A DNA stretch of 64,000 nt, taken from Candidatus Poribacteria bacterium. GTDB lineage: Bacteria; Poribacteria; WGA-4E; WGA-3G. The position numbers and the translations under genes are program-made. The stretch's first letter is position 1. Every line of letters starts with the position of its first letter. Shown piece after piece: positions 33,676-58,642 of the stretch. The DNA is taken from positions 124,001-188,000 of the forward strand of contig JAJDTM010000003.1 of assembly GCA_022827185.1 (NCBI GenBank), given 5' to 3'. The notes under the pieces were generated by a model, which ran no database searches, had not been told where the DNA came from, and saw nothing but the letters and a program-made list of their open reading frames with translations.

Positions 33676-34011
33676 ATGGAAGGATGGAAGCTTCAGATGA
33701 GCGACGACTATGAACTGAAGAAGGAGTTTTTAAGAAAATGGCTGATTGTCGTCAGTCGATCAGGTAAATTCAGTACGGTTTTCAATCTGATTATCTTATC
33801 CCTTGCACTCGGTACCTTTATCACGCTTTTTCTTGGTGACACCTATAATTTTCTAAATCAGTGTCTTGTAACGCCTTGTAGCTGGATGGCAGCAGCACGG
33901 CTGTTTGTTTTTAAATTGGAGTATCAGAACTCGCGTGTTATCCGGTGGATTTTTCGTTTCGTTCTGCTAATGAGCGTCATCCACACAATATTACTGGTAA
34001 AATATTTATGA
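33676..34011 (+). CDS. Small membrane protein of unknown function
   Basis: A 111-residue protein with a charged N-terminus and three hydrophobic segments (around residues 36-54, 64-76 and 91-108). No family recognised. An alternative start is the ATG at 33697 (MSDDYELKK); neither has a clear ribosome site. It ends by overlapping the start of the secreted protein gene by 3 bases (ATGA arrangement), suggesting the two are co-translated. Confidence 0.55.
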   Translation: MEGWKLQMSDDYELKKEFLRKWLIVVSRSGKFSTVFNLIILSLALGTFITLFLGDTYNFLNQCLVTPCSWMAAARLFVFKLEYQNSRVIRWIFRFVLLMSVIHTILLVKYL

Positions 34012-34793
34012 AAACTACATTGTTTATTTGCATTTTGGCGGTACTTACCCTATCCAGTGCGTTTGCTGCACCTGAATGGAAACCTTATGACGATTTTGAG
34101 GGAGATTTAGACGCAATTGACGAGACACCTGGGCAGATACCCGATCTCGGCACGAAATGGGTTCAATTTGTTCCTGAAAACCGCTTAGAGATGGGTATCA
34201 AAGATGGCGTGCTTCGGATGGAAGTTAAAGCACCGGGAGGTCGTGATCCGGGTTTTAAACTTGTTTTCGGATGGGAGCCGCGCGACATCCTCGGTATCCA
34301 ATTCACGGTGAAGGTCGCTGAACTCTCTGATGCCGGTGGATGGTTCGGGGTGCTGTGTACCAACGAGGAGACGAACTGGAAAAATCCGAACTGGGTTTTC
34401 GGCATGTCGCCGAGCCACCAACATAACTGGGGACCTAAGGGTGTGTTCGGTTCCGGTTCTGTCGGGCAGCTCGGGGGTTGGCAGGCGTTCGCTTATGAAG
34501 ACATCCCTGAAAATACGAATATGCTCCGAACGCTCCGTTTGGAATGGAACGATGCGAAACATGAAATGGCTGTCACCGTTGATCCTGGAGAAAAGACGGA
34601 ATGGAAAAAGGACGATATTCCCTCTAATGCCGACTTAGGCGAATTTCCGTGGTGGAGTATCTACCTCACTGCCGACCAAGAAGTCGAAGTCGCCGTTGAT
34701 GATGTTTTCGTAAAGTCGGAAAGTCTACCCTATCCCGTAGAAGCACGTGGCAAATTGGCTGCACGTTGGGGCGAAATAAAATTAGTGGATTAG
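34008..34793 (+). CDS. Secreted protein with KLxxTWGxIK-type C-terminal tail
   Basis: A 261-residue protein with a clear signal peptide (KTTLFICILAVLTLSSAFA, cleavage after AFA). The ATG at 34008 is chosen because it gives this signal and overlaps the upstream stop; an earlier in-frame ATG at 33945 would hide it. The mature part is beta-rich, opens with PYDDFEGDLDAIDE, and resembles concanavalin-like or 3-keto-disaccharide-hydrolase-like jelly rolls; no catalytic assignment. It ends in GKLAARWGEIKLVD, the tail also seen at the ends of three other secreted proteins in this window (41464, 48496 and 57914). Confidence 0.75.
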   Translation: MKTTLFICILAVLTLSSAFAAPEWKPYDDFEGDLDAIDETPGQIPDLGTKWVQFVPENRLEMGIKDGVLRMEVKAPGGRDPGFKLVFGWEPRDILGIQFTVKVAELSDAGGWFGVLCTNEETNWKNPNWVFGMSPSHQHNWGPKGVFGSGSVGQLGGWQAFAYEDIPENTNMLRTLRLEWNDAKHEMAVTVDPGEKTEWKKDDIPSNADLGEFPWWSIYLTADQEVEVAVDDVFVKSESLPYPVEARGKLAARWGEIKLVD

Positions 34794-34801
34794 TGCAATC
34801 C

Positions 34802-36889
34802 TTATGAGTTCCTCAAATAAGGTTTCAAGTCCCATAACAGAATCGTGTGATCAAAACCCCCACTTGCCAAGATGGTGCTATCTGGTGAAAACGCAAGACA
34901 TTGAATATCTGTCGGGTGTCCGAGAAAAGTGGCTATGTTTTCACCGGTGCGAATATCCCATAACTGAACAGGAACTTTCTCTAATCCCGGTTGCCAAATT
35001 TCGCCGAAAGCCACATACCGACCGCAAGGCGAGATTTCTATCGGATCTATATTAGGATACTCTCCATCTGGCACTGTAAGTGGGAGCAGCATTGTCATAC
35101 GTGTTTTACACTGCTCAATATCCCACACAAGTATACTAGCACCGGAAACTCCCACAATTAGATTTCCACAAAGAGAAAAAACGAGGGGAACAAAATAAGC
35201 TAGTGCTCTTAAGTCCTCTCCAAGTGATTTAATATACGCAGTATCAAAATATTCGGGAGGCATCACAAAAACTTCTGGAAACTCACCGATCTCTTCACCG
35301 GACATCATGTCCCACACCCGATTTATCCAGCTATCACATTTGCTGATAAGGCGTGTGCCGTCCGGACTGAATCTCACGTAATTGATGGAATTCGCATGTT
35401 TACCTCTGAGTATGTGTTTCATCTCTCCGCGTGCGACATCCCATACATACACTGCCCCATTTTGGGGGTCATTTTCATCCCAGCTCTCACTATCCTTTTC
35501 CGTTCCGGTCCCACAGGCCAGTAGTTGCGTGGTGGGCGTGTATGCCATCGCACGCCGATTAGGTAATTCTCCAGGGATCGTTAGTTCAGCGATCCGTTCA
35601 CTTTGTCCAATTTCCCACAGATTCAGGGTGTTGCTCCAATAGTCAGATTCTCCTGGGGGAAACCCGGTTGCATAAAATTTTCCAGTCGCCGGGTCCGAAT
35701 AAACGGCAACGATATGACAACGCGGCTCTGTAACAACATGTTGTGGACGATGGGTTGTTACATCCCATAGCACGACACCGCCAAATTGCCGGTACCCCGC
35801 ACAGAGTGTCTTTCCATCAGGCGAAAATACGAGAGAATGCAGATCGCCCTGTTCCCACGGCAGTATTGCAAGGGGCTCTGTCCCCCCCACTGACTTGACT
35901 TGGACTTCAAAGTCACTTTGGAAGGCAAGATGTGTCCCGTTGGAAAAATGAATAGGATAAATTTCAGCTTCACAATAATTTTTTTCATGAAAAGTATATA
36001 ACGCCTTTTGCTGTGCGACATCCCACACAGTGACTGTGCATTGATCCTGAGAAATACCTGCTGCCCGAAGCGTGCCATCGGGGGTGTAGGAAACATTCAT
36101 AAAGTAGTCTCCAAACGATGGATACGTTTGCTGCAGCTGCCAAGTAGAAGTCTCCCAGACTTGCACAGTCCCCTTTATTCCACCAGTCGCAAGGAACTGA
36201 CCGCAAGGTGAAAAACTGAGCGCGTGCACACCTTCGGAATGTCCGGTGAGGCGGATGATGCGTTCACGGGTCGTTATATCCCAGACGCTGATAAAATCCG
36301 ACCAATGTGACGAGGCAAAGAGCCGATCGCCCGGTGAAAACGCCAAAGCACCGCTAAAATTCCAAAAGAATCCATTGTCAGAGTCATCTATGCTACATAA
36401 CTCGATGTCTTCAGAAGGTAATTCCAGTGATGCATGGACTCTACCGGTTAACGACGCATAGATGTCAACGATAACACTACCATCTCGACTTGCAGCAAGC
36501 CATTGCCCTGAAGGCGAAAAACAGGGACTGCCTAAATAATTTCGAGGTGGATCGTCCCTCCACCTTGCCGGATGGTCCATGACAGCGATACATTTCTGTC
36601 TTTGCGTATCCCATATCTTAATCACCTCATCCCCATTTTTGTCACTATTTTTCACTGCCAACCACGGTTGACTTGAACAGAGGGCGATGTCGTCGACCAT
36701 GCCTCGCCCCGTTTCAAACAACGAAACAGGCTGGCGTGTGGTGAGGTCATACCACCACACGCCCATCCCAGTCCCAGCTGCCAAGGACGTTCCATCTGCA
36801 GAAACTGCTAAATCACATAAGGCACCCGACCCATAACGAGCAATTGCCCCCTGTGGCAGTTCCCAAACAGTGAAATTATTTTTATTCAT
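34802..36889 (-). CDS. WD40 repeat protein
   Basis: A 695-residue protein made almost entirely of WD40 repeats. About twelve W-D (or W-E, Y-D) ends are visible, for example IKIWDTQ, ISVWDITT, VTVWDVAQ, VVLWDVTT, VYVWDVAR, ILVWDIEQ, VQLWDIRT and ILLWDLKP, enough for two beta-propellers. No signal peptide, membrane segment or kinase domain is present, so it is likely a cytoplasmic scaffold. The ATG at 36889 is chosen over 36919 because AAGGG lies just upstream. It converges on the secreted-protein gene with an 8 bp gap. Partner unknown. Confidence 0.88.
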   Translation of the reverse strand: MNKNNFTVWELPQGAIARYGSGALCDLAVSADGTSLAAGTGMGVWWYDLTTRQPVSLFETGRGMVDDIALCSSQPWLAVKNSDKNGDEVIKIWDTQRQKCIAVMDHPARWRDDPPRNYLGSPCFSPSGQWLAASRDGSVIVDIYASLTGRVHASLELPSEDIELCSIDDSDNGFFWNFSGALAFSPGDRLFASSHWSDFISVWDITTRERIIRLTGHSEGVHALSFSPCGQFLATGGIKGTVQVWETSTWQLQQTYPSFGDYFMNVSYTPDGTLRAAGISQDQCTVTVWDVAQQKALYTFHEKNYCEAEIYPIHFSNGTHLAFQSDFEVQVKSVGGTEPLAILPWEQGDLHSLVFSPDGKTLCAGYRQFGGVVLWDVTTHRPQHVVTEPRCHIVAVYSDPATGKFYATGFPPGESDYWSNTLNLWEIGQSERIAELTIPGELPNRRAMAYTPTTQLLACGTGTEKDSESWDENDPQNGAVYVWDVARGEMKHILRGKHANSINYVRFSPDGTRLISKCDSWINRVWDMMSGEEIGEFPEVFVMPPEYFDTAYIKSLGEDLRALAYFVPLVFSLCGNLIVGVSGASILVWDIEQCKTRMTMLLPLTVPDGEYPNIDPIEISPCGRYVAFGEIWQPGLEKVPVQLWDIRTGENIATFLGHPTDIQCLAFSPDSTILASGGFDHTILLWDLKPYLRNS

Positions 36890-37046
36890 AGAAACCCTTA
36901 AGGAACTTGCAAGAAACATAAAAATTTCCTAAATCAATTTTACTGACATTTATCAAAGTTATGGTCAGACTACTACAGGCGTTGCCTAAGAGCGTATCGT
37001 ATTATGAAAATGCGTTTTGCTTTTAAAAAGTTGCTTGATTTTTAGC

Positions 37047-37100
37047 GCATGAGATGACCACCTAAAAGTTAACCAAACTTTTCAGGAGGACATCTCATGC
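37047..37100 (+). repeat. Large inverted repeat hiding an AGGAGG box and ATG
   Basis: Left arm 37047-37070 (GCATGAGATG... CCTAAAAGTT) and right arm 37076-37100 (AACTTTTCAGGAGG... CTCATGC) are complementary at about 22 of 25 positions around a 5-base loop. The right arm contains AGGAGG (37084-37089) and the ATG at 37097, so an RNA hairpin would block translation. A similar sequestered ribosome site is known at the left end of IS200-type elements. Confidence 0.65.
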
Positions 37101-37315
37101 AACAACATATTATCAGATCAGCAGCATTTTTCAATCCGCTTTCTACGCAAAACTATTATACAATGTTTTATACTTCCGTTAAACACCTTTATGGAAAACT
37201 AAACAGCCTTGGGCTGTTTCCAGGGCTATTCAGTTTTCGGTTTTTAGTCCAATTTTGGCCCCCAGACCCGGTAGGTTCGGTTTCCCAACCGAACCGGATC
37301 CTAAAAAAAGGATGA
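37097..37315 (+). CDS. Doubtful small open frame with perfect ribosome site
   Basis: A 72-residue frame starting MQQHIIRSAAFF. Its AGGAGG is exactly seven bases from the ATG, as good as any gene here, but both are inside the inverted repeat above. The second half of the frame runs through hairpins 37201-37219 and 37274-37295 and looks unlike protein (WPPDPVGSVSQPNRILKKG). It may be a leader peptide, the stump of a lost transposase or other gene, or chance. Confidence 0.3.
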   Translation: MQQHIIRSAAFFNPLSTQNYYTMFYTSVKHLYGKLNSLGLFPGLFSFRFLVQFWPPDPVGSVSQPNRILKKG

Positions 37316-37351
37316 GAAACTCTATATTTTCTTAAAACTGAATGACTCTGG
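37201..37351. repeat. Nested hairpins, possible structured RNA
   Basis: AAACAGCC-TTG-GGCTGTTT (37201-37219) is a perfect hairpin. It is followed by an 18-base arm (37220-37237, CCAGGGCTATTCAGTTTT) that pairs with 37334-37351 (AAAACTGAATGACTCTGG) with two G-U pairs and one mismatch. Enclosed is GGTTCGGTT-TCCC-AACCGAACC (37274-37295), a member of the AGGTT palindrome family. Confidence 0.5.
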
Positions 37352-37369
37352 GGCAGTTTCTATAAGGAC

Positions 37370-37398
37370 TTGATTATTTTCAAATTTCTGGGTATAAT
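37370..37398 (+). promoter_or_regulatory. Sigma-70-type promoter of mdh
   Basis: TTGATT (37370-37375), a 17-base spacer and TATAAT (37393-37398), about 50 bases before the GTG start. Confidence 0.65.
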
Positions 37399-37451
37399 TA
37401 ATACTGTCAATCTTAGCATAAAAACGATACATTTTCATAATGGAGGCAGAA

Positions 37452-38378
37452 GTGGCAAGAAAAAAAATCAGTGTTATTGGTGCGGGGAATGTTGGCGCAA
37501 CAGCGGCGTTCCTGATCGCACAGAAACAACTCGGGGATGTCGTCATGATAGACATCGTGGACGGGGTCCCGCAAGGTAAGGCATTGGATATGGCACAAAT
37601 GGGTCCCGTGGAACTCTTTGATGCCGCAATCGACGGAGACCTGGATTACACAGCAACCGCAGGCTCCGACTTGGTAATTATTACATCAGGCTCCCCGCGT
37701 AAACCGGGGATGTCGCGCGAAGATCTGTTGCAAACGAACGCCAATATCGTCGGCAGCGTCACAGAAAACGTGGTGAAGCACTCACCAGATACTATTATTA
37801 TGATGCTCACCAACCCATTGGATATCATGACCTACCATGCGTGGAAGGTTTCAGGATTCCCGTCACATCGCGTCGTCGGTCAAGCAGGTGTGCTGGATTC
37901 GGCACGGTTCCGCCATTTTATCTCGCTTGAACTCGGTGTATCTGTAGAAGACATCCACGCGCTTGTCCTCGGTGGACACGGCGATACAATGGTTCCACTC
38001 CCGCGCTATACCACTGTTAACGGTATCCCGATTCCGCAATTAATTCCAGAAGATCGTATTGAAGCGATGGCACAACGGACGCGTGACGGTGGTGCCGAAA
38101 TCGTCAATCTCCTGAAAACAAGTGGCTATTATGCCGCGGGTGCCTCGTTGGCACAGATGGCGGAAGCCATCATTCTGGATAAGAAACGGTTACTGCCTTG
38201 CTCTGCCCATCTTACCGGTCAATACGGTATTGATGATCTCTATATTGGCGTTCCTATTAAACTTGGTGGAAACGGTGTAGAAGAGATTCTCGAAATCGAA
38301 CTGACTGAAGCCGAGCTCGGTTCTTTACAGCACTCCGCACAAACGTATCGGGAAGGTATTGGGTTATTGGGATATTAA
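37452..38378 (+). CDS. mdh: Malate dehydrogenase
   Basis: An LDH-like malate dehydrogenase of 308 residues, interconverting malate and oxaloacetate with NAD in the citrate cycle. Seen: the NAD motif GAGNVGA at residues 10-16, the substrate loop SPRKPGMSRED with the paired Arg that select malate over lactate, TNPLD near residue 118, and the catalytic His in GGHGDTMVP near residue 174. The GTG at 37452 is chosen because GGAGG (37442-37446) lies 5 bases upstream and it gives the usual ARKKISVIG start; the ATG at 37440 overlaps that box. Confidence 0.95.
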   Translation: MARKKISVIGAGNVGATAAFLIAQKQLGDVVMIDIVDGVPQGKALDMAQMGPVELFDAAIDGDLDYTATAGSDLVIITSGSPRKPGMSREDLLQTNANIVGSVTENVVKHSPDTIIMMLTNPLDIMTYHAWKVSGFPSHRVVGQAGVLDSARFRHFISLELGVSVEDIHALVLGGHGDTMVPLPRYTTVNGIPIPQLIPEDRIEAMAQRTRDGGAEIVNLLKTSGYYAAGASLAQMAEAIILDKKRLLPCSAHLTGQYGIDDLYIGVPIKLGGNGVEEILEIELTEAELGSLQHSAQTYREGIGLLGY

Positions 38379-38443
38379 GCGGTGGGATGTAGTGGAAATG
38401 TGAAGGTATACGGGTGGATGAGAGGCATTTATTAGGGAAGATC

Positions 38444-38464
38444 GGCGAGGTTAGAAACCTCGCC
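38444..38464. repeat. AGGTT palindrome, copy after mdh
   Basis: GGCGAGGTT (38444-38452), loop AGA, AACCTCGCC (38456-38464): a perfect 9-base-pair hairpin between two convergent genes, so it could end both transcripts. No T-run follows. Confidence 0.6.
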
Positions 38465-38495
38465 TACCGTGGATGAGGAGAATAAATGACCTTGC

Positions 38496-39101
38496 TCATG
38501 CCTTTTGTGCGACCATGCTGGCGAGGATGCCGAGGAGTCTGTCACACCGCTCAAGCGTGTAGCTTGTCATATCAATGTGCAGGTGCTTTTCTTCTAACTT
38601 GAGGAACTGCCACTCTATGCCTGTCGTAGAGGCACCGTAAATACAACGGATGTCATTCCCTTTTTCGGCATTAAAGCGTTGTGAGGCAACCATTTCAGCA
38701 ACGCATTGCCCTAATCCAAGTTTCAAGTCAAGATTTTTTGCCTCAACAAGGATAATGACGGGTGCTTCCAAGTAAAATTGTTCTGGCGATAAACTGACCA
38801 AAAAATCACATACGCCCGTCAAACCTTTCTCAGCATCAACGTTGAAGTCAATCCCAGAAAACAGACTAATGCGGCGATCGAAATGCTCGATAAGTTCTAC
38901 GAGTACATCGGCGACAATCATTTCTGATCGTGCTTTCTCAGTGCCGATAGCGGTGGCCAATGATGCCTTTCTTGCTAACCCTGTCGTCAGATATGCGCTT
39001 GGTGCCACTGGCTCCATTTCAGAGAAGATTCCTACAGACCGAACTGTCTCCAGTTGGAATGTTTTCTGCACCGACTCTAAGGTAAATTCGCTATAAGCCA
39101 T
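38496..39101 (-). CDS. PD-(D/E)XK nuclease-superfamily-like protein
   Basis: A 201-residue protein. GVCDFLVSLSPEQF near residue 97 followed by VIILVEAKNLDL near residue 115 gives the D...E-x-K arrangement of PD-(D/E)XK phosphodiesterases, and the conserved Gln-containing helix (GLGQCVAEMVASQRF) follows as in that fold. Similar single-domain proteins of unknown role occur in cyanobacteria. GGGAG lies before the ATG. No methyltransferase or helicase is adjacent, so a restriction role is unsupported. It lies 139 bp downstream of the end of dnaK on the same strand. Confidence 0.6.
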   Translation of the reverse strand: MAYSEFTLESVQKTFQLETVRSVGIFSEMEPVAPSAYLTTGLARKASLATAIGTEKARSEMIVADVLVELIEHFDRRISLFSGIDFNVDAEKGLTGVCDFLVSLSPEQFYLEAPVIILVEAKNLDLKLGLGQCVAEMVASQRFNAEKGNDIRCIYGASTTGIEWQFLKLEEKHLHIDMTSYTLERCDRLLGILASMVAQKA

Positions 39102-39240
39102 TGCTTAAACTCCCTTACGGTCCTAAAGCATCTCTACAACATAACCTCACGGTGAAAGTATGGAAGAAGATTCTCCGAACCTTCCACACTTCCATACTTC
39201 CATTCTGGTCAACAAAGAAAAGGACTTTGCATCCGCCCCA

Positions 39241-41169
39241 TTAATTTTTCTTCTCATCCTCGTCAACGACTTCGTATTCAGCGTCAACGACTTCGCTATC
39301 CTCGGATTCAGCTGTCGGATCAGCAGCGGATGGATCTCCCTGCGCAGCACCCGGATCTGTGCCTGCAGTCTGTTGGTACATCTGTGCGGAGACTTCATGC
39401 CAGACCTGCGTTAACTCGTCCGTTGCGGATTGAATCTCGGCGTGGTTGTCTGCCTCTAACGCTTGTTTGACACGAGCGACAGCAGCGTTGACCTTCTCCT
39501 TAGCAGCAGCATCTACCTTATCGCCAAACTCACTGAGGTTTTTCTCAGTCTCGTAAACCATAGAATCTGCCTGGTTCCGCGCCTCAACTTCCTCGCGTTT
39601 CTGCTTATCCTCTTCCGCGTGTGCTTCGGCATCTTTCACCATCTGATCAATCTCGGCTTCCGAAAGTCCAGAGGACGCGGTAATGGTAATTTTCTGCTCT
39701 TTACCGGTCGCGGTATCTTTCGCGGATACATTAAGGATGCCGTTTGCGTCAATATCAAACGTCACCTCAATCTGCGGTATACCTCTCGGTGCTGGCGGCA
39801 ACTCACTCAAACGGAAACGTCCGATGGTTTTGTTATAAACCGCCTGTTCGCGTTCGCCTTGAAGGACATGCACATCAACCGATGTCTGGTTGTTCTCAGG
39901 TGTCGTGAATATGTTCGATTTCTTTGTAGGAATTGTTGTGTTCCTGTCAATCAGTCGTGTGAACATACCGCCGAGTGTCTCAATTCCAAGCGAAAGGGGT
40001 GTAACATCCAACAAGAGAATGTCTTTGACCTCTTCATCGCCTGCAAGGACACCGCCCTGAATTGCGGCTCCAATTGCGACGACTTCATCTGGATTGACCC
40101 CTTTGTGCGGCTCTTTACCGAAGAGTTGTTCCACGGCTTCTTGCACCTTCGGCATGCGTGTTTGTCCACCAACAAGGATCACTTCGTCGATATCGGAGGG
40201 TTGTATCTCAGCATCCGCGAGTGCTTGTCGGCACGGCTCAAGCGACCGTTGGACGAGATCATCTGTAATCTGCTCCAGTTTTGCGCGGGTAAGTGTCAAG
40301 TTAAGGTGCTTCGGGCCGCTGGCATCAACGGTGACAAACGGTAGGTTTATGTCTGTCTGTAAAGTGCTGGAGAGTTCACATTTTGCGGTTTCTGCTGCCT
40401 CTTTTAAGCGTTGCAATGCCATCTGATCACTGCGGAGATCAATGCCTTGGCTACTGAGAAATTCTTGTGCCATCCAGTCAATAATCACTTGGTCAAAATC
40501 GTCGCCGCCGAGATGCGTATCGCCATTTGTACTCTTGACCTCAAAGACTCCGTCCCCGATTTCAAGAATAGAAATATCAAATGTCCCACCACCGAGATCG
40601 TAAACAGCAATTCTCTTGTCGCCTTCGCTTTGTAACCCATAGGCGAGGGATGCAGCGGTCGGTTCATTGATAATCCGCTCGACTTCTAACCCCGCGATTT
40701 TGCCTGCGTCTGCCGTCGCCTGACGTTGGGAATCGTTAAAGTAGGCGGGAACGGTAATAACTGCCTTTGTAACATCTTCTCCGAGGTACGCCTCGGCAGT
40801 CTCTTTCATTTTCCGTAAAACCATCGCGGAGATTTCGGGCGGTGTGTAATCTTTACCCTCAATATTTACAGCGACATCACCATCTTTATCGGCTTTTAAT
40901 TCATAAGGCACACGAGAAGCATCATCACCGATCTCGCTATGTTTTCGTCCCATGAACCTTTTAATCGAAAAAATTGTATTTTCAGGGTTTGTGGTAGCTT
41001 GTCTTTTGGCAACCAGCCCTACAGGACGTTCCCCTTCTTTGGTAAAAGCGACAACCGAGGGAGTCGTCCGATTCCCCTCTGCGTTTTCGATCACCTTAGC
41101 ATCGCCGCTCTCTAAGACAGCCACGCATGAATTTGTTGTTCCTAAATCAATTCCTATGACCTTGCTCAT
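39241..41169 (-). CDS. dnaK: Molecular chaperone DnaK (Hsp70)
   Basis: A full-length Hsp70 of 642 residues. Seen: [15 protein letters not shown] at the N-terminus (phosphate 1), [15 protein letters not shown] near residue 195, [13 protein letters not shown] near 335, [14 protein letters not shown] near 390 at the linker to the substrate domain, and the acidic C-terminal tail that ends in [12 protein letters not shown]. It binds unfolded proteins in an ATP-driven cycle with DnaJ and GrpE, whose genes are not here. GAGGAG precedes the ATG. The promoter looks vegetative; I saw no CIRCE element. Confidence 0.97.
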
Positions 41170-41463: not shown

Positions 41464-42258
41464 TTACTGCACCCTATATTTTTCCTTGACGGATCCCCAT
41501 GTAATCGGCAATTTTGCTTCCGGATCAACCGCCAAAATCTCTTGGATACCGCCTTGGATCTCTTTAATCTCATCCTGTGATAACCCTCGATCAAAGAGTG
41601 CAAAGTCGTCAATAATACCATTATAGTAACGGTTGAGAGCGGGGGGTTCCTCCATGCCAATCATAAGCGGTGCATCAATCGGCACCAGTTTATCGCCAGT
41701 CTTCGGGTAATCTATCAACACCTCACCATCAAGATAGGTGGTCCACCACTTTCCACTCTGAAACGAAACAGCGACATGCTGCCATTTGTCTTTGACAACA
41801 TCGCGCGGACTCTGTGCGGGGACATTCCGTCCACCTGTCAATTTCCAACCCATCCATATAAAACCGTCCGGATGGAGCAGCACCTCAAAAAATTCCTGTA
41901 CATCCGGTCCCTTCGCCGCGATCAGTTGCCACGTACCGGGACCCACCTTCAGCGTCGGTTTAATCCAAGCGGCAATGGTAATGCCATCGGTAAATTCAAA
42001 CGCATCGGAATGTTCTACCCGAACAATCCCATCTTTCCCACCGAAATTGACCGCCTTCCCGAATTTACCGTCGCTCCACGACGTATCACCCTCTAATTTC
42101 CCATCCTGTTTGTTCCCAGACAGATCCTTGACAGTCTTGCCCGCCCCCTCTTCAAAAGCGAAATAGACGACTAAACCTTCGAGTTCTGCGGCTGTGCTAA
42201 CGCTTTGGAAACTCCCTATCAGATACACAGCACACAAGCAAATTAAAAATGGACGCAT
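41464..42258 (-). CDS. Secreted LamG-domain protein with KLxxTWGxIK-type tail
   Basis: A 264-residue protein with a signal peptide (PFLICLCAVYLIGSFQSVSTA). Residues 25-235 form one LamG/concanavalin-like jelly roll: LVVYFAFEEGAGKTVKDLSG at its start, ITIAAWIKP near residue 93, WQHVAVSFQSGKWWTTYLDG near residue 160 and YYNGIIDDFALFDRGLS near residue 215 are all classic. Such domains bind carbohydrate or mediate adhesion. The protein ends VDPEAKLPITWGSVKEKYRVQ, the tail shared with the secreted proteins at 34008, 48496 and 57914. GGAGG precedes the ATG. Confidence 0.88.
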   Translation of the reverse strand: MRPFLICLCAVYLIGSFQSVSTAAELEGLVVYFAFEEGAGKTVKDLSGNKQDGKLEGDTSWSDGKFGKAVNFGGKDGIVRVEHSDAFEFTDGITIAAWIKPTLKVGPGTWQLIAAKGPDVQEFFEVLLHPDGFIWMGWKLTGGRNVPAQSPRDVVKDKWQHVAVSFQSGKWWTTYLDGEVLIDYPKTGDKLVPIDAPLMIGMEEPPALNRYYNGIIDDFALFDRGLSQDEIKEIQGGIQEILAVDPEAKLPITWGSVKEKYRVQ

Positions 42259-48495: not shown

Positions 48496-49332
48496 ATGAA
48501 AAGTATTTCCTGGCTGACAATCACGATCGCGGTTGTCTTTGTACTGGCTATCGAAACCTCACAATCTGTATTCGCGCAGGCGAACGATATCAAGGGGGGT
48601 CCCTTGAAAAACGACGAACTCCTGAAAGATCCAAACCCGAACGGTGACGAACTGAGGGAAGATCACTCTGACAATAAAAACTGGATTACCAAGTGGTATG
48701 GTCCCGATGGCAACTATGAGAACAATGGCGGTTTTGGGGCATCCTCAAAGATAGATCTCATTGACAAAGGCACTAATGGTACACTCACGGAATCCAAACT
48801 TTCGACAGGAGGAGGACTGAACCTCACAAAAATAGTCAAGATGAACTGGGAAGACGCTAACGGGGGGCCTCGGGAGTGGACGGTCTTTGAACTCGATCCG
48901 GCAGACGGGCACAACATGAACAGAGGCGGTCCTGTTGATAATATTGATACTTACGGAATGATCGTTATTCACTCGCCTATAGCGAGAAAAGCCGTTATGT
49001 CTCCTGCACATGATGACCACGCCCAAATTTGGATTAACGGCGAAAAATGGTACAACAACTCCAGATGGACAGGTGCCGCACGAACAATCCTTCATAACGT
49101 CGAAGTCGATTTGAAAAAAGGTGGCAATGTGCTGCTCTATCGGGTTGGTGAATCCGCGGGCGCCGCGTATATCAACCTCCATTTTGATGAGGAGACCCAC
49201 GAAAAAACCAGGATCTATCCCGATAAATCAAATGACCAGAAGAGTTTCTTCGCCGAAATCCAAGGTTTCCTTGATGTTGAACCTGTAGGTAAGTTGACGA
49301 CGACTTGGGCAGACATCAAACAACGGAAATAA
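48496..49332 (+). CDS. Secreted protein with KLxxTWADIK tail
   Basis: A 278-residue protein with a signal peptide (SWLTITIAVVFVLAIETSQS, cleavage near VFAQA). The mature part starts with an unusual acidic, Asn-rich region and then a beta-rich domain; HAQIWINGEKWYNN near residue 178 and NVLLYRVGESAGAAYINL near 214 resemble PA14/sialate-esterase-like carbohydrate-binding jelly rolls (W-x-N-G-x motif), without a clear family. The last residues are VEPVGKLTTTWADIKQRK, the tail shared with three other secreted proteins here. AGAAGG precedes the ATG. It has the strongest promoter in the window, so it is probably abundant. Confidence 0.78.
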   Translation: MKSISWLTITIAVVFVLAIETSQSVFAQANDIKGGPLKNDELLKDPNPNGDELREDHSDNKNWITKWYGPDGNYENNGGFGASSKIDLIDKGTNGTLTESKLSTGGGLNLTKIVKMNWEDANGGPREWTVFELDPADGHNMNRGGPVDNIDTYGMIVIHSPIARKAVMSPAHDDHAQIWINGEKWYNNSRWTGAARTILHNVEVDLKKGGNVLLYRVGESAGAAYINLHFDEETHEKTRIYPDKSNDQKSFFAEIQGFLDVEPVGKLTTTWADIKQRK

Positions 49333-49385: not shown

Positions 49386-49387
49386 AA

Positions 49388-51989: not shown

Positions 51990-52496
51990 ATGGATATATT
52001 CTCTCTTTTAGTTCTCTGGATACACGTTATCGCCGCTGTTATATGGGTCGGCGGCAATCTCATTTTAGCGATGGTAATCGTCCCGCATTTCAGACAGAGT
52101 TTACCACCTGTTCAACGTATCCAACTTTTGATGCAGATCGGTAAACGATTTGAACCGGTCGTCTGGGGCTGTATCGGTGTGCTATTTTTTACCGGTATCA
52201 TCAACATCTTTTTCGCCGTAGATCTCACCTCTCCGACTGCGCTCTCCGATGCGTTTATGCGAACGCTCATCATCAAAATTCTACTTTTCTTTGTGTTGAT
52301 TATCCTTACGGTCCTGCACAGCATGATTTTCGCGCCCCGATTGGTGGTAGCGATTGAGGATTTAGACCCCACAATTGAAGAACTTCCGCCAGAAATTAAG
52401 CCGCTCCGTACCCAGATGTCAGTTGTGTCGAGTCTGATAGGTGTTGTTTCCTTAATCATCCTGCTCGCCGCAGTCGCGCTCCGCATGGGAATTTAA
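51990..52496 (+). CDS. CopD-like four-helix membrane protein
   Basis: A 168-residue integral membrane protein with four hydrophobic segments. LWIHVIAAVIWVGGNL at the N-terminus carries the HxxAxxxWxGG pattern typical of CopD-type and DUF2269-type proteins, in which the His may bind heme or copper. A second conserved-looking His lies in TVLHSMIFAPRL. AAGGAT precedes the ATG, 37 bp after the BatD-like stop. Copper transport is a family association only, with no copper chaperone or efflux ATPase nearby. Confidence 0.75.
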   Translation: MDIFSLLVLWIHVIAAVIWVGGNLILAMVIVPHFRQSLPPVQRIQLLMQIGKRFEPVVWGCIGVLFFTGIINIFFAVDLTSPTALSDAFMRTLIIKILLFFVLIILTVLHSMIFAPRLVVAIEDLDPTIEELPPEIKPLRTQMSVVSSLIGVVSLIILLAAVALRMGI

Positions 52497-52618
52497 CGAC
52501 AGCGTAAACCAATTAAACCTATTTGCGTTTTTAAAGTCAATTGGGTTATTATAGATAGTGATCACAAGCATATGAGATTAGAATTGAATTCACATTAACT
52601 AAGGGAGTTATACCTCAA

Positions 52619-53761
52619 GTGTACTTTTCTATGCGCAAAACCTTTATACTACTTTTATGGCTTGCCGTCTTTCTGCCGGTTACCGCGCTTGCGGGCCCCG
52701 GACGGACCGGGGCACAAATTTTGAACCTCGGCGGTGGCGCGCGAGCAAGAGCCCTCGGCGACGCGTTTTATGCAGTGTCTGGTGATGTAACAACATCGCT
52801 CTGGAATCCAAGCGGACTCGCAGATATGCCTGAAAGTAAACTCCGATCGGGCAAAAAAGCTGCACAAGCCTCAATGTTTTATACAGACCGCACTGCTATT
52901 TTTGGGGAAGCGGGTGAAGGCTTATACTATACCTTCCTTTCGGGTGCGATGCCTCTCGGTGATTTCGGAACCATCGGTGCTACACTCCAAATGGAAGGAC
53001 AAGGCACGATTGCTGTAACAACAGATTCCCCAGATATCCTCCGCGAGGAGAACCTTGGCACTAATTTCGCGTTAACATTCTCCTACGCAGATAGGATCAC
53101 TGACTCTTTATCGGCAGGCATTAACGGGAAAATAATTCGGATGGTCCTCGGGCGTGAGAACGGAAATTCTTATGCCCTTGATTTGGGGATGCAGTACCGC
53201 ATCCCGTTTGACCTTATGCCGACGACACTCGGCGTTGCAATACAGAACATTGGACCGGGTATCTCCTTCATTGATGAAAACCAAGCGGATCCGTTACCTC
53301 GGTTTTTACGGATTGGTACCGCAACGAGCCTCTACCGCGATAATTATAACCATCTGCGTCTTGTCAGTGGTATCACGGCATACATTGATAAATTGGCAGA
53401 GGATAAAGACGAATTAGCAGTCGATTTAGAACGGCTTAACGCCGAAAGAGAGGAAAAACTGACGCGCGAACAGCTGCTTTCCGATCGCGGGGTCGGTATC
53501 CGAGCATTTGAGTGGCGACACCTCCAAAAGAATCTCGGTTTGGAGTACTGGCTCGGTGATATTTTTGCGATCCGCGTCGGCTGTAAAGTTGAGCCTGGTA
53601 TCAATCTACCAAACTTAACAGATTATCTTACCGGCGGTATCGGTGTGAAACTATTCCTATTCAACCTTGATTTGAGTTATCGTGCCAACCCCGGTCCAGG
53701 TCGTGCATCGAGTGGCACAATACCCGGACTTATTGAAGTGACAGGGATCATCATCTTTTAG
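52619..53761 (+). CDS. PorV/PorQ-like outer membrane beta-barrel protein
   Basis: A 380-residue outer membrane protein. The signal peptide (KTFILLLWLAVFLPVTALA) is followed by AQILNLGGGARARALGDAF near residue 35 and a WNPSGLA segment near 63, the hallmark opening of the PorV/PorQ (UPF0164) family of FadL-like barrels. The remainder alternates in beta-barrel style. In Bacteroidetes PorV and PorQ belong to the type IX secretion machinery; in other phyla the family is broader. GTG at 52619 (AAGGGAG 11 bases upstream) or ATG at 52631 is the start. The next gene follows by 14 bp. Confidence 0.85.
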   Translation: MYFSMRKTFILLLWLAVFLPVTALAGPGRTGAQILNLGGGARARALGDAFYAVSGDVTTSLWNPSGLADMPESKLRSGKKAAQASMFYTDRTAIFGEAGEGLYYTFLSGAMPLGDFGTIGATLQMEGQGTIAVTTDSPDILREENLGTNFALTFSYADRITDSLSAGINGKIIRMVLGRENGNSYALDLGMQYRIPFDLMPTTLGVAIQNIGPGISFIDENQADPLPRFLRIGTATSLYRDNYNHLRLVSGITAYIDKLAEDKDELAVDLERLNAEREEKLTREQLLSDRGVGIRAFEWRHLQKNLGLEYWLGDIFAIRVGCKVEPGINLPNLTDYLTGGIGVKLFLFNLDLSYRANPGPGRASSGTIPGLIEVTGIIIF

Positions 53762-53775
53762 AGGAGACACCCAAC

Positions 53776-54603
53776 GTGAAATTTTACACACACATTTTGA
53801 TATTCGTGCTGCTATTCTGTTTATCCGTTGGTGTCTGCTCAGCCTCTGATATTTTACAAGCGCAGCCCTTTACGGCTTTCTATCTGGAATCTACGCTCGG
53901 AAACCGTTCATTAGCAGATCAATCAACTGTCGCCACGGCAGCGAGCCAAGCACTTCAACCTCGGAAATCGCCAAATGAGGCGTTCCTTTATTCGCTTGTC
54001 ATCCCCGGCATGGGACAACTCTATACAGGTGCCAAACGCGGTTATATCTACACCGCAGCAGAAGTCGGTTTCCTCGCGACCTTTTTTATTTTGCGGAACT
54101 CCGCCTCAAACATACGCGATGATTACCGCGATGTCGTCAGAGATCATGTTGTTTTTATCGGTCCTGGCTCGTTTGAAGATTGGGATCCGATTGAAGATTT
54201 TGAACACGCCACACAATATGAAACATGGAACCATGACTATGATACAGAAGCGACCCAAAAGCGTACCGGTAAGTGGTATTGGAAAGATCTTGATCCAGAC
54301 CTAAAAAATGAGAGACATAGAGATCTTGAGAAGAGAGGTATTGCTTCAAACTACCGACAAGAGGCTTTCGATTTGAGGGAACAAGCGAATGATACTTTTG
54401 AACGCGCGAAATTCTTCTTGGGATTAGCAATCTTAAACCATGCCATTAGTGCCGTAGAAGCACGCATCACGACCAAACGTTTCAACAGTCGATTAGAAAA
54501 TATGCCCACGCAGACACAAACTCGCGCGTTTGATATAGATGTGCAAGCGGACAGGTCCACAGGCGCGCTGACAGGAATGTTCGTCCTACGGAAAAGATTT
54601 TAA
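53776..54603 (+). CDS. DUF5683-like membrane protein
   Basis: A 275-residue protein with a signal peptide or first membrane segment (HILIFVLLFCLSVGVCSA). The segment FLYSLVIPGMGQLYTGAKRG near residue 72, followed by a hydrophobic stretch, is the DUF5683 signature (a small domain often found with outer membrane or cell-surface systems). The rest is charged and helical. GAGGAG lies 9 bases before the GTG start. It is linked by position to the PorV/PorQ-like gene and probably works with it at the envelope. Confidence 0.7.
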   Translation: MKFYTHILIFVLLFCLSVGVCSASDILQAQPFTAFYLESTLGNRSLADQSTVATAASQALQPRKSPNEAFLYSLVIPGMGQLYTGAKRGYIYTAAEVGFLATFFILRNSASNIRDDYRDVVRDHVVFIGPGSFEDWDPIEDFEHATQYETWNHDYDTEATQKRTGKWYWKDLDPDLKNERHRDLEKRGIASNYRQEAFDLREQANDTFERAKFFLGLAILNHAISAVEARITTKRFNSRLENMPTQTQTRAFDIDVQADRSTGALTGMFVLRKRF

Positions 54604-54614
54604 AAGGAGCACCT

Positions 54615-55553
54615 ATGCCATTAGAGATACCACAACTTTTGGAGGCACTTAACTCAGTTACCGCGATCCCCATTATCCCGTTCAAAGAAGGCAAGGTTGA
54701 TTATACTGGCCATGCCAAAAATATCGACTATTTAATGCGTAACAACTACCTTGACGCGGGTAGACAGCGTGTCATCGCTATTGCTGGTACCAGCCTGATT
54801 CACCACATCAACGAAACCCAGCAACTCCGTATCATCGACAAAACTGGACAACAAATAGGCGAGGAAGGCATCCTCATATCCGGTATCGTCCCGAATCCCA
54901 TCCGCCAAGCCGGTCAACTTATTGAAGCACAGACGGAACTCAGTAGACCCCCAGATGCCTATCTACTCATGCCACTCACTGGCATCTCCAGCCCGGAAGG
55001 TGTCTACGAACAGTACATGGAATTCGGTGAAAGATACGGCACTGCTTGCGGCGCGCGGTTTCTCTATTACTTCCGACAGAAACGCGATATGTCCGCTGTT
55101 ATCCGTCTCTTAAAAGACTCACCGCATTTCATCGGTGTGAAGATCGGGACGGGTGAAGAGGATGTCGAGCCACTCGTCGAAGGTGTAGGCGATAGCGGGA
55201 TCGTGATGTGGGGTATCGGGGATAGGTGTACGCGACCTGCACAGTTAGGTGCGAAAGGACATACCTCCGGAATAGCTGTCGCTTTCGCGCGTGCCTCTGA
55301 CGAGATTAACAACGCACAACGTCGTGGCGATTATGAGACCTCCGCTCGTATTGAAGCCGACATCGCACCGCTTGAGGAGATCCGTTTCATGAACGAGCGG
55401 GTCTATAACTATTCTGCTGTTATTGAAGCAATGATCCTGAGTGGATTTGATGATATTGAGGCAGGGACGGGTGGTCCGTTTAATCCACGCGTACCAACGG
55501 AAATTCAGGCACAACTCCGTGAAGTGACACAGAACTTAAAGCACTACCATTAA
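54615..55553 (+). CDS. Dihydrodipicolinate-synthase family lyase
   Basis: A 312-residue class I aldolase-like barrel. Seen: TAIPIIPFKEGKVDYTGHAK near the N-terminus, the Schiff-base Lys in FIGVKIGTGEED near residue 178, and a Tyr in FLYYFRQ near 150 placed as the catalytic Tyr. The family includes DapA, N-acetylneuraminate lyase and several sugar-acid aldolases; the usual GTTGE motif is changed (AIAGTSLIHH), so this is probably not DapA itself. AAAGGAG precedes the ATG. Confidence 0.87.
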   Translation: MPLEIPQLLEALNSVTAIPIIPFKEGKVDYTGHAKNIDYLMRNNYLDAGRQRVIAIAGTSLIHHINETQQLRIIDKTGQQIGEEGILISGIVPNPIRQAGQLIEAQTELSRPPDAYLLMPLTGISSPEGVYEQYMEFGERYGTACGARFLYYFRQKRDMSAVIRLLKDSPHFIGVKIGTGEEDVEPLVEGVGDSGIVMWGIGDRCTRPAQLGAKGHTSGIAVAFARASDEINNAQRRGDYETSARIEADIAPLEEIRFMNERVYNYSAVIEAMILSGFDDIEAGTGGPFNPRVPTEIQAQLREVTQNLKHYH

Positions 55554-55627
55554 GGTCAAGTGCTATATTCTGTTTGACAACCACAATCGAATGCCAAACA
55601 TCGCCAATTTGACAGAAGCGTCACTTC

Positions 55628-56002
55628 ATGATACAATATTCAGCGATAATACCAAAAGTCTATGTTGAAACAACAGTTATAAGTTACCTGGTTGCGCGCC
55701 CGAGCAATGAAATAAAGCGGCAGCTCATCAATGAGGTTTGTCACGCAGCGGGGTTTCAATCACCAACTATTTGCACACCAATAGAAATTATTGAGGAGGC
55801 CCAAATGAGAGAGAAAGTTGATACGTACACGGATGCGGTACTTGAGGAATGCTATCGGATGAAAGAGGAATTCAATGCGCAATTTAACTCTGTGAAGGAG
55901 CTCTCTGATTATTTGAAAGCAGAAAATAAAAAACGCAAAGCACTTGGATGGAAATATGTTTCAGCGGCACGGCCACACGACAACAGCCAGAAAAAAAATT
56001 GA
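55628..56002 (+). pseudogene. Collapsed PIN toxin fused in frame to its antitoxin
   Basis: A 124-residue frame. Residues 9-27 (PKVYVETTVISYLVARPSN) equal the start of a PIN toxin like that at 32515. The next residues (EIKRQLINEVCHAAGF, then SPTICTPIEIIEE) equal the end of the same toxin, so about 100-110 residues with most of the catalytic acids are missing. The frame then runs without a stop through the antitoxin ATG (55805, with GAGGAGG upstream) into DAVLEECYRMKEEFNAQF, the antitoxin segment also seen at the start of the 33006 protein. A single internal deletion explains this. The antitoxin could still be made from 55805. Confidence 0.78.
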
Positions 56003-56086
56003 ATCCCTCTTGAAGACTGCTTAAGATGTGGTCTCATGAAAGTCCAACTTGCCATTTGTTAATCTCCAGTTACATTAGATTTTACC

Positions 56087-57799
56087 ATGTCTTTTGATAG
56101 TTTAGCACTCCGCATTGTTACACAAGAACTCCGCGAAGCCCTTTTAGGCGGCACGATTCGACACATTGAACAGACGAATGCGCACACCCTTTCACTCAAA
56201 ATTGGTCGTGTTAATGAAACACACTGGCTCACTTTATCAGCGCATTCGGTGCATGCCCGCGCCCATCTGATCCAAAAGCCCGCGCCCGGGCAAAAACAGT
56301 CCTATCTCGCAGACTTCCTCACAACGCATCTCAGACGCGGCACGGTTACTGATATTGAACAACTCGGTTGGGATCGGATTCTCAAAATAACCGTCCAACC
56401 CGTCTCCGATGAACCGATACAACCGTCCCCGAAAGCTATTATCGTAGAGATAATGGGTAAACACAGTAACATTATTCTCATAGATGCAACCGACGATAGG
56501 ATTTTGGAGAGTCTCAAACGTATTGACGAGACGATGAGCCGACACCGAGAAATTTTGCCCGGCGAAACTTATACTTTGCCGCCACAGCAGGATAAGGTGG
56601 ATCCGTTGACGTTAGACGCAGCAGCGTTTACTGAACTGTTTGATGGCCAAACGGACGTGAGTTGGCGACAACTTTTTAACAAGATCGACGGTTTCAGTCC
56701 GACACTCGCGAAAGAGGTTGTTGCGCGGGCAGCTGAAACGGCACTCTGGGATGCTTATCAGCGGGTTATCGCCTATTTCGATCTGAAGCACGCTTCACCG
56801 CAGCTGCTCACGGATGGTGGTGAACCGATTGCGGCATCAACGCTCCCACTGCAACAATTTCCACACGTCGCTTCTCAAACATTCAACACGATGAGCGATG
56901 CGCTTGCAGCATACTACGAGGCAATCACACTGAAAGAGCACATCGTTTCAGAACGCGGCACCCTCACACAGGCGTTGACGAAGCAGAAAGGTCTACTTCA
57001 ACGCAAAGCAACAGCACTACACACCGATTTGGAACGCGCGGAAAAAGCTGAAGAATACCGTATTCAAGGCGAATTAATTCTTGCCAACCTACACGCTATT
57101 ACCCGCGGGCAGAAAGAGGTAGCGTTGCAGAACTACTATAGTCCTGAACTCGAAAAACTATCGATTCCACTTAATCCAGAGCAAAGTCCCTCCGAAAACG
57201 CACAGACCTATTTCAAAAAATATACGAAGGCGAAACGCGGTCGCTCGCGCATTCAACAACTCATCTCAGATTTGGATGCAGACTGCGAGACGCTTGAACT
57301 CTATGTATCCAAGTTAGCATCCGCCGATACGCTGGCAGCACTGCAGAAACTCCGCGCTGAGTTTGTTGAAAACGGCTATCTCAAAGCACCGCAACGTGGA
57401 AAACAGAAACAGGAAGTCGGTGAAGGTCCCTTCCGAAGATATACCTCTACCAACGGCTTCCAGATGTATGTCGGTAAAAACAGTCAGTCGAACGATCTGC
57501 TCCTGCGCCAGATTGCCAAACCGAGTGATATGTGGCTCCATGCGAAGCAGATTCACGGTTCGCATGTCATCATCCGCAACCCAGAAAACCGTCCGGATAT
57601 CCCGATGCCGACGTTACTGCAAGCCGCCCAACTCGCTGCCTATTATAGTAAAGCGCATCATGCCAGTAATGTTCCTGTTGACTATACGTGGGCGCGCTAC
57701 GTCGTAAAACGCAAAGGCAACGTCGCAGGCTATGTGCATTACACCCGCGAAAAAACATTATACGTCGAACCCGCTGTCCCATCGTCAGACGATAAATAA
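56087..57799 (+). CDS. rqcH: RqcH / NFACT family protein
   Basis: A 570-residue NFACT protein of the bacterial ribosome quality control pathway, which adds alanine tails to peptides stuck on split 50S subunits. Seen: the NFACT-N domain with the D96-R97 pair (GWDRILKI) that recruits tRNA, a coiled-coil middle with two long helices (about residues 285-425), and the NFACT-R domain YTSTNGFQMYVGKNSQSN, then DMWLHAKQIHGSHVIIR near residue 485. Older annotation calls this fibronectin-binding protein A. The start has no clear ribosome site, but the frame and N-terminus (SFDSLALRIVTQEL) match the family. Confidence 0.93.
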   Translation: MSFDSLALRIVTQELREALLGGTIRHIEQTNAHTLSLKIGRVNETHWLTLSAHSVHARAHLIQKPAPGQKQSYLADFLTTHLRRGTVTDIEQLGWDRILKITVQPVSDEPIQPSPKAIIVEIMGKHSNIILIDATDDRILESLKRIDETMSRHREILPGETYTLPPQQDKVDPLTLDAAAFTELFDGQTDVSWRQLFNKIDGFSPTLAKEVVARAAETALWDAYQRVIAYFDLKHASPQLLTDGGEPIAASTLPLQQFPHVASQTFNTMSDALAAYYEAITLKEHIVSERGTLTQALTKQKGLLQRKATALHTDLERAEKAEEYRIQGELILANLHAITRGQKEVALQNYYSPELEKLSIPLNPEQSPSENAQTYFKKYTKAKRGRSRIQQLISDLDADCETLELYVSKLASADTLAALQKLRAEFVENGYLKAPQRGKQKQEVGEGPFRRYTSTNGFQMYVGKNSQSNDLLLRQIAKPSDMWLHAKQIHGSHVIIRNPENRPDIPMPTLLQAAQLAAYYSKAHHASNVPVDYTWARYVVKRKGNVAGYVHYTREKTLYVEPAVPSSDDK

Positions 57800-57913
57800 A
57801 ATCTTAGTGGAAAGTAATGCTAATAATTGGTGTGTGCTAACCAAAATTTGTAGACATTATTTATAACAATTCTGTTATACTATGCTCACAGATTAACATA
57901 GGAGGAATTCGTT

Positions 57914-58642
57914 ATGAAACTGGTTAAGTTGCTCATACTGATTGCATCTGTCTGTGCCGTCAGTCTTTTTTCAACAGGAATTGCGACAGCGTTAGATGAA
58001 TGGATACATGTTGACATAGAACCCTATTCAAATACGAAACTGGTTAAACACCAATGGTGGACGTTAGCCCCGGGTGATAGTACCCTTTCCCGTCTACCTA
58101 TCGGCGAGGTTGGCGAATTTGAGGGCCCCGACGGTAAGGTTGAATTCCAGATTATTGATGGTGCCATCGTCGTCTTTGGGACAAATGCAGCGAGATGGCC
58201 CAAAGCCGTTGAGGACATTGCCGTTGAAGGTCAGGCGAAGTTCATCTATTTTTTCCACGCAACGGGGTGGGAACAGAACGGCGTGCCGAGTTACAAATTC
58301 GTCATGAACTACCGAGATGGTAAAAAGGAAGAACTTGAACTCATTTCAGGTGTTAATTCCGATGACTGGTGTCACGATGGTGCTAATCTTGAAGACGATA
58401 ACTCCGTCTGGGGTTGGATCAAGAAAGAGGGCGGTCCCTGTGGACATGCTGGACTGATTACCACGAAATGGAAAAATCCGCGCCCCGATATCTGGATTTC
58501 TACCATAGACATCGTCTCTTTGGAATTAGGTTCAGTCCCTATAATTCCAGCGATTACGTTGGGTGAGGCAACACTCGCAGTTGAACCTTCACAGAAATTG
58601 GCAGTCACATGGGGAAGTCTAAAGGACTCCAGTGGGTTATAG
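57914..58642 (+). CDS. Secreted protein with KLxxTWGxLK tail
   Basis: A 242-residue protein with a signal peptide (KLVKLLILIASVCAVSLFST, cleavage near ATA). The mature part is beta-rich with several Trp and two Cys pairs (DDWCHDGANL and GGPCGHAGLI near residues 153 and 177); WKNPRPDIWISTIDIVSLEL near residue 190 resembles the edge strand of a jelly-roll carbohydrate-binding module. Function is unknown. It ends VEPSQKLAVTWGSLKDSSGL, the tail shared with three other secreted proteins. AGGAGG lies seven bases before the ATG. An extended -10 box (TGTTATACT, 57874-57882) upstream may be its promoter. Confidence 0.78.
   Translation: MKLVKLLILIASVCAVSLFSTGIATALDEWIHVDIEPYSNTKLVKHQWWTLAPGDSTLSRLPIGEVGEFEGPDGKVEFQIIDGAIVVFGTNAARWPKAVEDIAVEGQAKFIYFFHATGWEQNGVPSYKFVMNYRDGKKEELELISGVNSDDWCHDGANLEDDNSVWGWIKKEGGPCGHAGLITTKWKNPRPDIWISTIDIVSLELGSVPIIPAITLGEATLAVEPSQKLAVTWGSLKDSSGL

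Follow-up and report, generated by a model that had tools for sequence, protein, structure and literature searches.

Four genes in a 64-kb stretch of DNA from a Candidatus Poribacteria bacterium (GCA_022827185.1, contig JAJDTM010000003.1, positions 124,001 to 188,000; the window) encode secreted proteins of different make that all end in nearly the same few residues, and the question raised by this locus is what such an ending is for. The original prediction took it to be a sorting, anchoring or partner-docking signal. That is the best-fitting reading and is supported in part, by the coupling of the tail to protein export and by its distinctness from known tags, both as judged from sequence. 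Comparisons across the genome to which the window belongs (6.1 Mb in 65 contigs) and across its relatives establish a tail that stands strictly at the C-terminus, is coupled to a signal peptide, sits on unrelated bodies, is conserved as protein and is found throughout the phylum. How it is read is a matter of graded probability. An evenly poised proposal is that in Poribacteria the tail serves as a C-terminal sorting tag on soluble proteins exported through the Sec pathway, which would be bound by a receptor in the envelope and delivered to the cell surface or beyond it.

The four proteins (proteins 1 to 4, in order of position; Table 1) lie where they had been placed and end as described, as translation confirms, and all four carry a signal peptide by the single strict home-made rule, distinct from SignalP, that was used throughout. 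The last lysine of the shared block stands 3, 6, 3 and 5 residues from the stop, within the range given for it, and the block follows V-[ED]-P in three of the four and V-E-A in protein 1. The ten-residue consensus originally proposed is present but was drawn too short, as the block begins at a valine ten residues before the tryptophan. No further protein in the window has this end: a less strict pattern searched in all six frames, L-x-x-[TRS]-W-[GA]-x-[ILVF]-[KR], is found in the 64 kb at exactly these four places, each of them just ahead of a stop. About 5e-6 such ends would be expected in the window from body composition (50 genes and four offsets), and a chance origin of the four is therefore excluded.

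Outside the tail, the four proteins have little in common. They do not align over their full length, and the conserved part common to all is the last 16 residues or so. In pairwise BLAST comparisons, each piece with an E value below 0.1 is a tail match of 19-23 residues, and the tail is the best common piece in five of the six pairs (E 0.0004 to 0.5, 15-23 residues); proteins 1 and 2 gave no piece below E 0.99, and in none of the six pairs did a body piece go below E 0.94. The LamG domain claimed for one protein is that of protein 2, which alone matches Pfam at E values up to 1 (Laminin_G_3, with a weak match to Laminin_G_2). The body of protein 3 shows weak likeness to GH31 accessory, CBM35 and PA14-type domains (best Foldseek E value 5e-4), with a query-normalised TM-score of at most 0.33 among the Foldseek matches listed.

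A profile made from the tails of the four window proteins found at least 150 matches in the same genome (the best 150 of 221 candidates; weakest E value 0.006). From the 150 loci together came 161 frames that end in a W-x-x-[ILVFM]-[KR]-type motif, of which 149 were kept as full length (median length of the tail proteins, 262 residues). The 12 left out comprise ten that begin at the edge of a stretch, one 69-residue frame that has an upstream stop (L046) and a chance frame on the opposite strand (L092); for one or more of them (L040) the fuller copy, which lay in another locus, was lost on de-duplication. The 149 were first kept using a lenient signal-peptide call, and a choice made without that call, of frames of at least 180 residues that are not cut at an edge, returns the same set.

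The consensus of the tail is V-[ED]-[PA]-x-x-K-L-[AT]-T-T-W-[GA]-x-[LI]-K, followed by 1-10 residues to the stop (in the own-genome frames most often 3). Counted from the tryptophan over 160 distinct own-genome tails, a set that takes in edge-cut frames and one chance frame, the commonest residues are L at -12 (56%), V at -10 (92%), E or D at -9 (69%), P or A at -8 (91%), G at -6 (52%), K at -5 (91%), L at -4 (85%), A or T at -3 (87%), T at -2 (77%), T at -1 (79%), G or A at +1 (98%) and L or I at +3 (93%). The values for the tryptophan itself (100%) and for the lysine at +4 (99%) are partly built in, the frames having been picked by a pattern that requires W and K/R, and the 43 bits of information over the whole tail are likewise partly set by the selection of frames. 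The V, P/A, first K, L, T and T columns were not demanded in this set, although the first profile was built from the four window tails.

Abundance and position can also be judged from counts that use other patterns. A DNA pattern for the core K-L-x3-W-[GA]-x-[ILMF]-K has 134 matches in the own genome versus one for the same pattern written backwards; across 60 genomes the figures are 14-156 versus 0-3 per genome. In 20 random 15-kb stretches of the own genome the tail is carried by 13 of 245 genes (5.3%), a density of about 43 tail genes per Mb that extrapolates to some 270 in the genome; the percentage may be high, since the stretches were drawn from 29 tail-bearing contigs (4.6 of the 6.1 Mb), and five of the 13 genes form one tandem array (L250). 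With the window added, itself chosen for its tails, 17 of 299 sampled genes bear the tail, and among these 299 the protein pattern occurs 11 times at the C-terminus and never internally. A scan of 84,980 species with a DNA pattern blind to stop codons gave at least 112 stretches in other records; those listed hold 132 matches, and for all 132 an in-frame stop follows after 1-8 residues. Because these matches had been selected by codons for V, an E/D-type and a P/A-type residue, K, L, T, T, W and K, it is their position that counts as evidence and not their conservation. Elsewhere in the own genome, nine tail-ended frames crowd into 8.9 kb (L080:1-8853; G000:C38:120154-129006), some of them PD40/TolB-type propeller-like and others LamG-like by eye.

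The predicted enrichment for signal peptides among proteins with this end was borne out. The rule recognizes a signal peptide in 132 of the 149 own-genome tail proteins and in 112 of 120 uncut tail proteins of at least 180 residues from other records, versus 62 of 281 tail-free genes, a background that includes membrane proteins and in which the rule also flags some of these as well as a malate-dehydrogenase-like protein. All 17 own-genome failures have a hydrophobic N-terminal stretch visible by eye. Within the sample that includes the window, 15 of 18 pattern matches carry a signal peptide by the strict rule, versus the same 62 of 281 (Fisher p 2e-7), the other three being two tail proteins with a visible signal peptide and one chance match without any (L253); the random stretches alone gave 11 of 14, one of the 14 a chance match, versus 52 of 231 (Fisher p 3e-5). 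The pattern is hence far from equally common at the ends of cytoplasmic proteins.

If all tail proteins descended from one ancestral gene, or if the tail were a structural element of their fold, ordinary homology would account for the likeness. The size of the LamG-like group is what this explanation has in its favour: with signal peptide and tail removed, 95 of the 149 bodies fall into one BLAST cluster. The other 54 are spread over 23 clusters (sizes 11, 9, 5, four of 3, one of 2 and 15 singletons), and the Pfam matches, among 25 of 48 families listed, include beta-propellers (PD40, 11), 3keto-disac_hyd (11), CBM9 (3) and kelch (1) beside Laminin_G_3 (79). In the scan of full proteins, one of the 149 matches T9SS_PorE (E 2e-4) and 11 match TolB models, both read as propeller bodies. 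The tail also lies outside the confident fold in both of the models described below, and BLAST finds nothing but the tail common to the four window proteins. Paralogy and a fold element are very improbable, and were rejected as they stand, with deep fold homology between some clusters being possible.

Selection on the tail acts at the protein level, to judge from its codons. The 45-nucleotide tail cores have a mean nucleotide identity of 0.596 versus 0.587 expected from their residues and the codon usage of the bodies, and synonymous codons vary in the tail about as they do in the bodies. A mobile cassette, terminator or other repeat copied at the DNA level to the ends of genes would explain why the tail lies within 1-10 codons of the stop. 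Such an element should not leave nucleotide identity at about what the residues demand, and the 132 stop-blind matches all read in frame to a nearby stop; it was rejected as scarcely credible. In 60 aligned LamG proteins, the only invariant columns are the K, W and K of the tail, and the top residue accounts on average for 0.69 of the sequences at tail positions, against 0.41 within the LamG domain, 0.31 immediately ahead of the tail and 0.18 immediately behind it, the value for the tail being inflated because the proteins were taken from tail-selected loci.

The tail is a property of the whole phylum as sampled. Profile matches are present in 60 of 60 relatives (17 genera) and in 84 of 84 Poribacteria genomes (21 genera), with at least 25 in each, and Poribacteria genomes encode dozens to hundreds of tail-bearing exported proteins apiece. 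Of the 112 stretches listed in the scan of 84,980 species, 80 had names: 78 Poribacteria, one Pseudomonadota and one Planctomycetota. The bin labelled Planctomycetota (G085) has two tail matches, in proteins 72% and 37% identical to tail proteins of the own genome, and none of its 40 relatives, whose phylum is inferred from that bin, has the tail; the 72%-identical protein may reflect transfer or misbinning. It lies on a 4.3-kb contig with the Planctomycetota label (L151:451-1272), whose two other genes match no collected locus. The 1.9-Mb bin labelled Pseudomonadota (G084) has five tail matches at an E value threshold of 0.01, on bodies unlike any collected locus, two of them within L138:912-3140.

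Physically, the tail is basic and appears loosely ordered. Its mean net charge from seven residues before the tryptophan to the end is +2.6, and after the last lysine of the core arginine is enriched 5.6-fold and lysine 1.9-fold over body composition. None of the 149 full-length proteins has a cysteine in its last 20 residues, and one has a lipobox. A membrane segment is equally wanting: the maximum 19-residue hydropathy in the last 45 residues has a median of 0.4, and reaches 1.6 in one of the 149 (a borderline 1.64). In an AlphaFold model of protein 2 the body is confident (ten-residue blocks mostly at 80-97 in the predicted local distance difference test, pLDDT), and the last 24 residues have a pLDDT of 57-66; in a model of protein 3, built on 13 sequences only, the pLDDT is below 50 over most of residues 262-278. 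An amphipathic helix, expected from the L-x3-W-x2-L spacing, was tried and rejected, the hydrophobic moment at 100 degrees (0.238) being below that of shuffled tails (0.263); of five angles, the moment is highest at 160 degrees (0.485 versus 0.264 shuffled). The models suggest that the tail is probably an exposed, flexible end that has no shape predictable without a partner.

A short, poorly ordered C-terminal end on exported soluble proteins is also what a periplasmic quality-control or stability signal could look like, such as a binding site for a protease or chaperone. Signals of that kind are generally hydrophobic ends that present a free carboxylate, whereas this tail closes with 1-10 variable residues after its last lysine, and such a role is improbable.

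Among known C-terminal tags, the closest in general design are PEP-CTERM, GlyGly-CTERM, PGF-CTERM, MYXO-CTERM and LPXTG, which likewise are short lineage-specific signatures with a basic end, borne by many exported substrates per genome on unrelated bodies. CTERM and sortase-type tags combine a signature, a transmembrane helix and a basic cluster (PMC11980579). The Poribacteria tail shares the basic residues at the very end. It differs in having neither a transmembrane helix (the one borderline case apart) nor a cysteine, and no such model matches it: none of 84 tails (of 85, one being too short) matches NCBIfam at an E value of 1, though single tails may not readily reach significance against short models, and no CTERM or sortase-signal family is among the 22 NCBIfam families matched by the 149 full proteins at 0.01. 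The recommended comparison with CTERM and type IX models was thus negative for these tails and, with the missing membrane segment, upholds the view that the end differs from LPXTG, PEP-CTERM and type IX tails.

Several fainter resemblances were set aside. Two Pfam matches, of one tail each (E 0.095 and 0.17), were treated as chance. A profile search of the PDB gave five sequences at E values up to 1, the best being 8prj_A (v31Bagel8) at 5.2e-6, and was uninformative, with a best stretch of nine residues and no stretch that passes alone. A vague likeness of the string WGSLK to encapsulin or microcompartment targeting peptides was rejected because tail proteins have Sec signal peptides. The strings KLATTWG, LATTWG, KLTTTWG, TTWGKLK and TTWGxLK were absent from the literature searched, which took in few subscription journals, and no account of such a tail showed up among the papers listed there on Poribacteria or on C-terminal tags.

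Dockerins are C-terminal modules on exported proteins that dock to a partner, and the tail resembles them in position and in the export of its bearers. Their hallmark is an Asp-rich calcium-binding repeat, which a home-made pattern finds in none of the 149 tail proteins; the same pattern finds dockerin-like ends on three other exported proteins among the 299 sampled genes. Three neighbouring genes with N-terminal parts alike by eye (L258:6286-7272, 7792-9474 and 9683-10489) have two dockerin-like ends and one type IX-like sorting domain between them, as if C-terminal tags had been swapped on one body. The strongest rival to a sorting tag is a docking or anchoring tag, by which proteins that reach the periplasm or surface in some other way would be held there through a scaffold protein, lipopolysaccharide or another anionic polymer. 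A tail that is basic and poorly ordered in both models would suit this, as would bodies that are mostly LamG- or binding-domain-like and the presence of dockerin-like ends in the same genome. Two lysines, a tryptophan, a leucine and Thr-Thr at fixed places, with their 43 bits (in part an effect of selection), are more specific than charge alone would need, and docking is possible but on the unlikely side.

As a sorting tag, the tail would act late in export. Soluble proteins made with a Sec signal peptide would be taken across the inner membrane, after which they would be freed of that peptide and fold. One conserved envelope receptor would then bind the tail, which is basic and would be exposed and flexible, and would hand the proteins to an outer-membrane secretion route leading to the cell surface or outside. 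Sorting and docking differ in what loss of the tail would do: it would leave a sorted protein in the periplasm, and would let a docked one float off. Markers of two outer-membrane routes are encoded in these genomes, and the tail could serve either or neither.

The first route resembles type IX secretion. The own genome encodes a SprA-like protein of 2,210 residues (TIGR04189, 154 bits, below the cut-off of 200; E 2.7e-45), three PorU-like proteins (NF033707, 346-406 bits, below the cut-off of 420), the PorV/PorQ-family protein of the window (Table 1) and another PorV-family protein whose gene adjoins one of the PorU-like genes. Across 13 genomes, SprA_N matches, weak ones, fall on frames of 1,952-2,312 residues in all 13 and exceed the cut-off in six, and Peptidase_C25 has two to four matches in each. 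The SprA-like gene and the three PorU-like genes lie at L276:4457-11089, L295:4114-10371, L296:2415-7514 and L297:1457-7915. These findings differ from those of a 2014 single-cell study of Poribacteria, which describes type IX sorting domains and reports that the structural genes were not found (PMC3909097).

One special case of the sorting tag would be a short alternative substrate signal of type IX-like machinery itself, with SprA and PorV-like proteins as its readers and a PorU-like C25 peptidase as the enzyme that cuts it. The established type IX signal (TIGR04183) is likewise a C-terminal signal on proteins with a signal peptide, with candidate machinery genes in the same genomes and the same role as that proposed here. 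The differences lie in size and sequence: TIGR04183 is a model of 72 positions, mostly on long proteins, whereas the tail has about 16 conserved residues and nothing like a folded beta-sandwich of that size, and at an E value of 0.01 the model matches none of the 149 tail proteins, although it works in this genome, with 74 matches elsewhere. Known type IX signals are folded seven-stranded domains that bury about 1,850 square angstroms in the translocon (PMC10994853), an interface that a 16-residue tail cannot offer. Gene order would lean the other way, a tail gene being nearest or next to sprA in eight of nine genomes of the genus; it is so in none of four outside it. In seven of the eight the neighbour is the same upstream gene on the same strand, one of the seven having an opposite-strand frame in between; the remaining genome has a different, divergent tail gene. 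A type IX-like signal is a doubtful version of the sorting tag.

The second route is type II secretion, whose secretin GspD is encoded in all 13 genomes, and for which the tail would be a substrate tag, again a special case of the sorting tag. In three of the nine genomes of the genus, gspD is followed immediately by two tail genes on its own strand; two others have a similar pair 5-6 kb downstream. Of the rest, one genome has only a convergent tail frame adjoining and three have no adjoining tail gene; outside the genus, none of six gspD-like loci has one. The locus L298:401-9846 carries pseudopilin-like starts and gspD and then two tail genes, the names other than gspD having been given by eye. 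Type II secretion cargo is not known to bear a linear tag, and this counts against the proposal. In its favour, GlyGly-CTERM and MYXO-CTERM proteins also need type II secretion (PMC11980579). On balance, a type II tag is unlikely. Linkage to sprA or gspD was not counted as evidence for either route, because each adjacency may be one inherited event.

A further variant combines the receptor with covalent attachment. On this proposal the tail, carried by about 5% of sampled genes, would be an envelope-receptor tag without a membrane segment, and its two near-invariant lysines could be the cutting or joining points of a PorU-like C25 transpeptidase that attaches the proteins to the surface; it is a long shot.

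Several observations weigh against a sorting tag with its own receptor and route. Tail genes are linked to sprA and gspD in a single genus, and adjacency has a background: sampled genes adjoin a tail gene in 9.2% of cases with the window and 7.8% without it. The two of six own-genome hub genes (sprA, gspD, the three PorU-like genes and the PorV-like gene of the window) that have an adjoining tail gene, set beside this background, were not counted as evidence. The two bins labelled as other phyla bear two and five tail matches, and the presence of the tail in all 84 genomes of the phylum leaves no tail-free member for a comparison of co-occurring partners. Both AlphaFold models draw a low-confidence helix in the tail, at odds with a hydrophobic moment that is greatest at 160 degrees. 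Long proteins of this genome already carry another sorting signal (the 74 TIGR04183 matches), and a second one needs a reason.

Were the tail a sorting tag nonetheless, 16 residues would identify much of what is secreted by an uncultured phylum, which is among the most dominant in marine sponges according to the single-cell study (PMC3909097). Each genome would then have dozens to hundreds of poorly annotated proteins that could be assigned to a single route, and the export of Poribacteria proteins to the outside would become testable. Such a tag, with the sequence specificity of the CTERM tags and no membrane segment, would also have no counterpart in the curated libraries scanned.

Table 1. 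Tail-bearing proteins, their tail cores and a PorV/PorQ-family protein in the window (positions in the 64-kb stretch)
Feature	Position	Strand	Evidence and remarks
Exported protein 1, 261 residues	34008..34793	+	Body without Pfam or NCBIfam match at E 1; tail at end
Tail core VEARGKLAARWGEIK of protein 1	34737..34781	+	Matches two other tails weakly in pairwise BLAST (E 0.1-0.5)
Exported protein 2, 264 residues	41464..42258	-	LamG body, Laminin_G_3 PF13385, E 3.3e-23; tail at end
Tail core VDPEAKLPITWGSVK of protein 2	41485..41529	-	K249, W254 and K258 invariant in LamG alignment
Exported protein 3, 278 residues	48496..49332	+	Beta-rich body, fold weakly like glycosidase accessory/carbohydrate-binding domains; tail at end
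Tail core VEPVGKLTTTWADIK of protein 3	49276..49320	+	Translation; tail pLDDT mostly below 50
PorV/PorQ-family outer-membrane protein, candidate type IX-like component	52619..53761	+	NCBIfam NF033709, 181.6 bits, cut-off 90; link to tail putative
Exported protein 4, 242 residues	57914..58642	+	Body without Pfam or NCBIfam match; tail at end
Tail core VEPSQKLAVTWGSLK of protein 4	58580..58624	+	Translation and pairwise BLAST

Elsewhere in the window, positions 23074-27254 hold three genes that may encode an ABC-2-type permease and proteins of GldG-like and DUF4340-like type.

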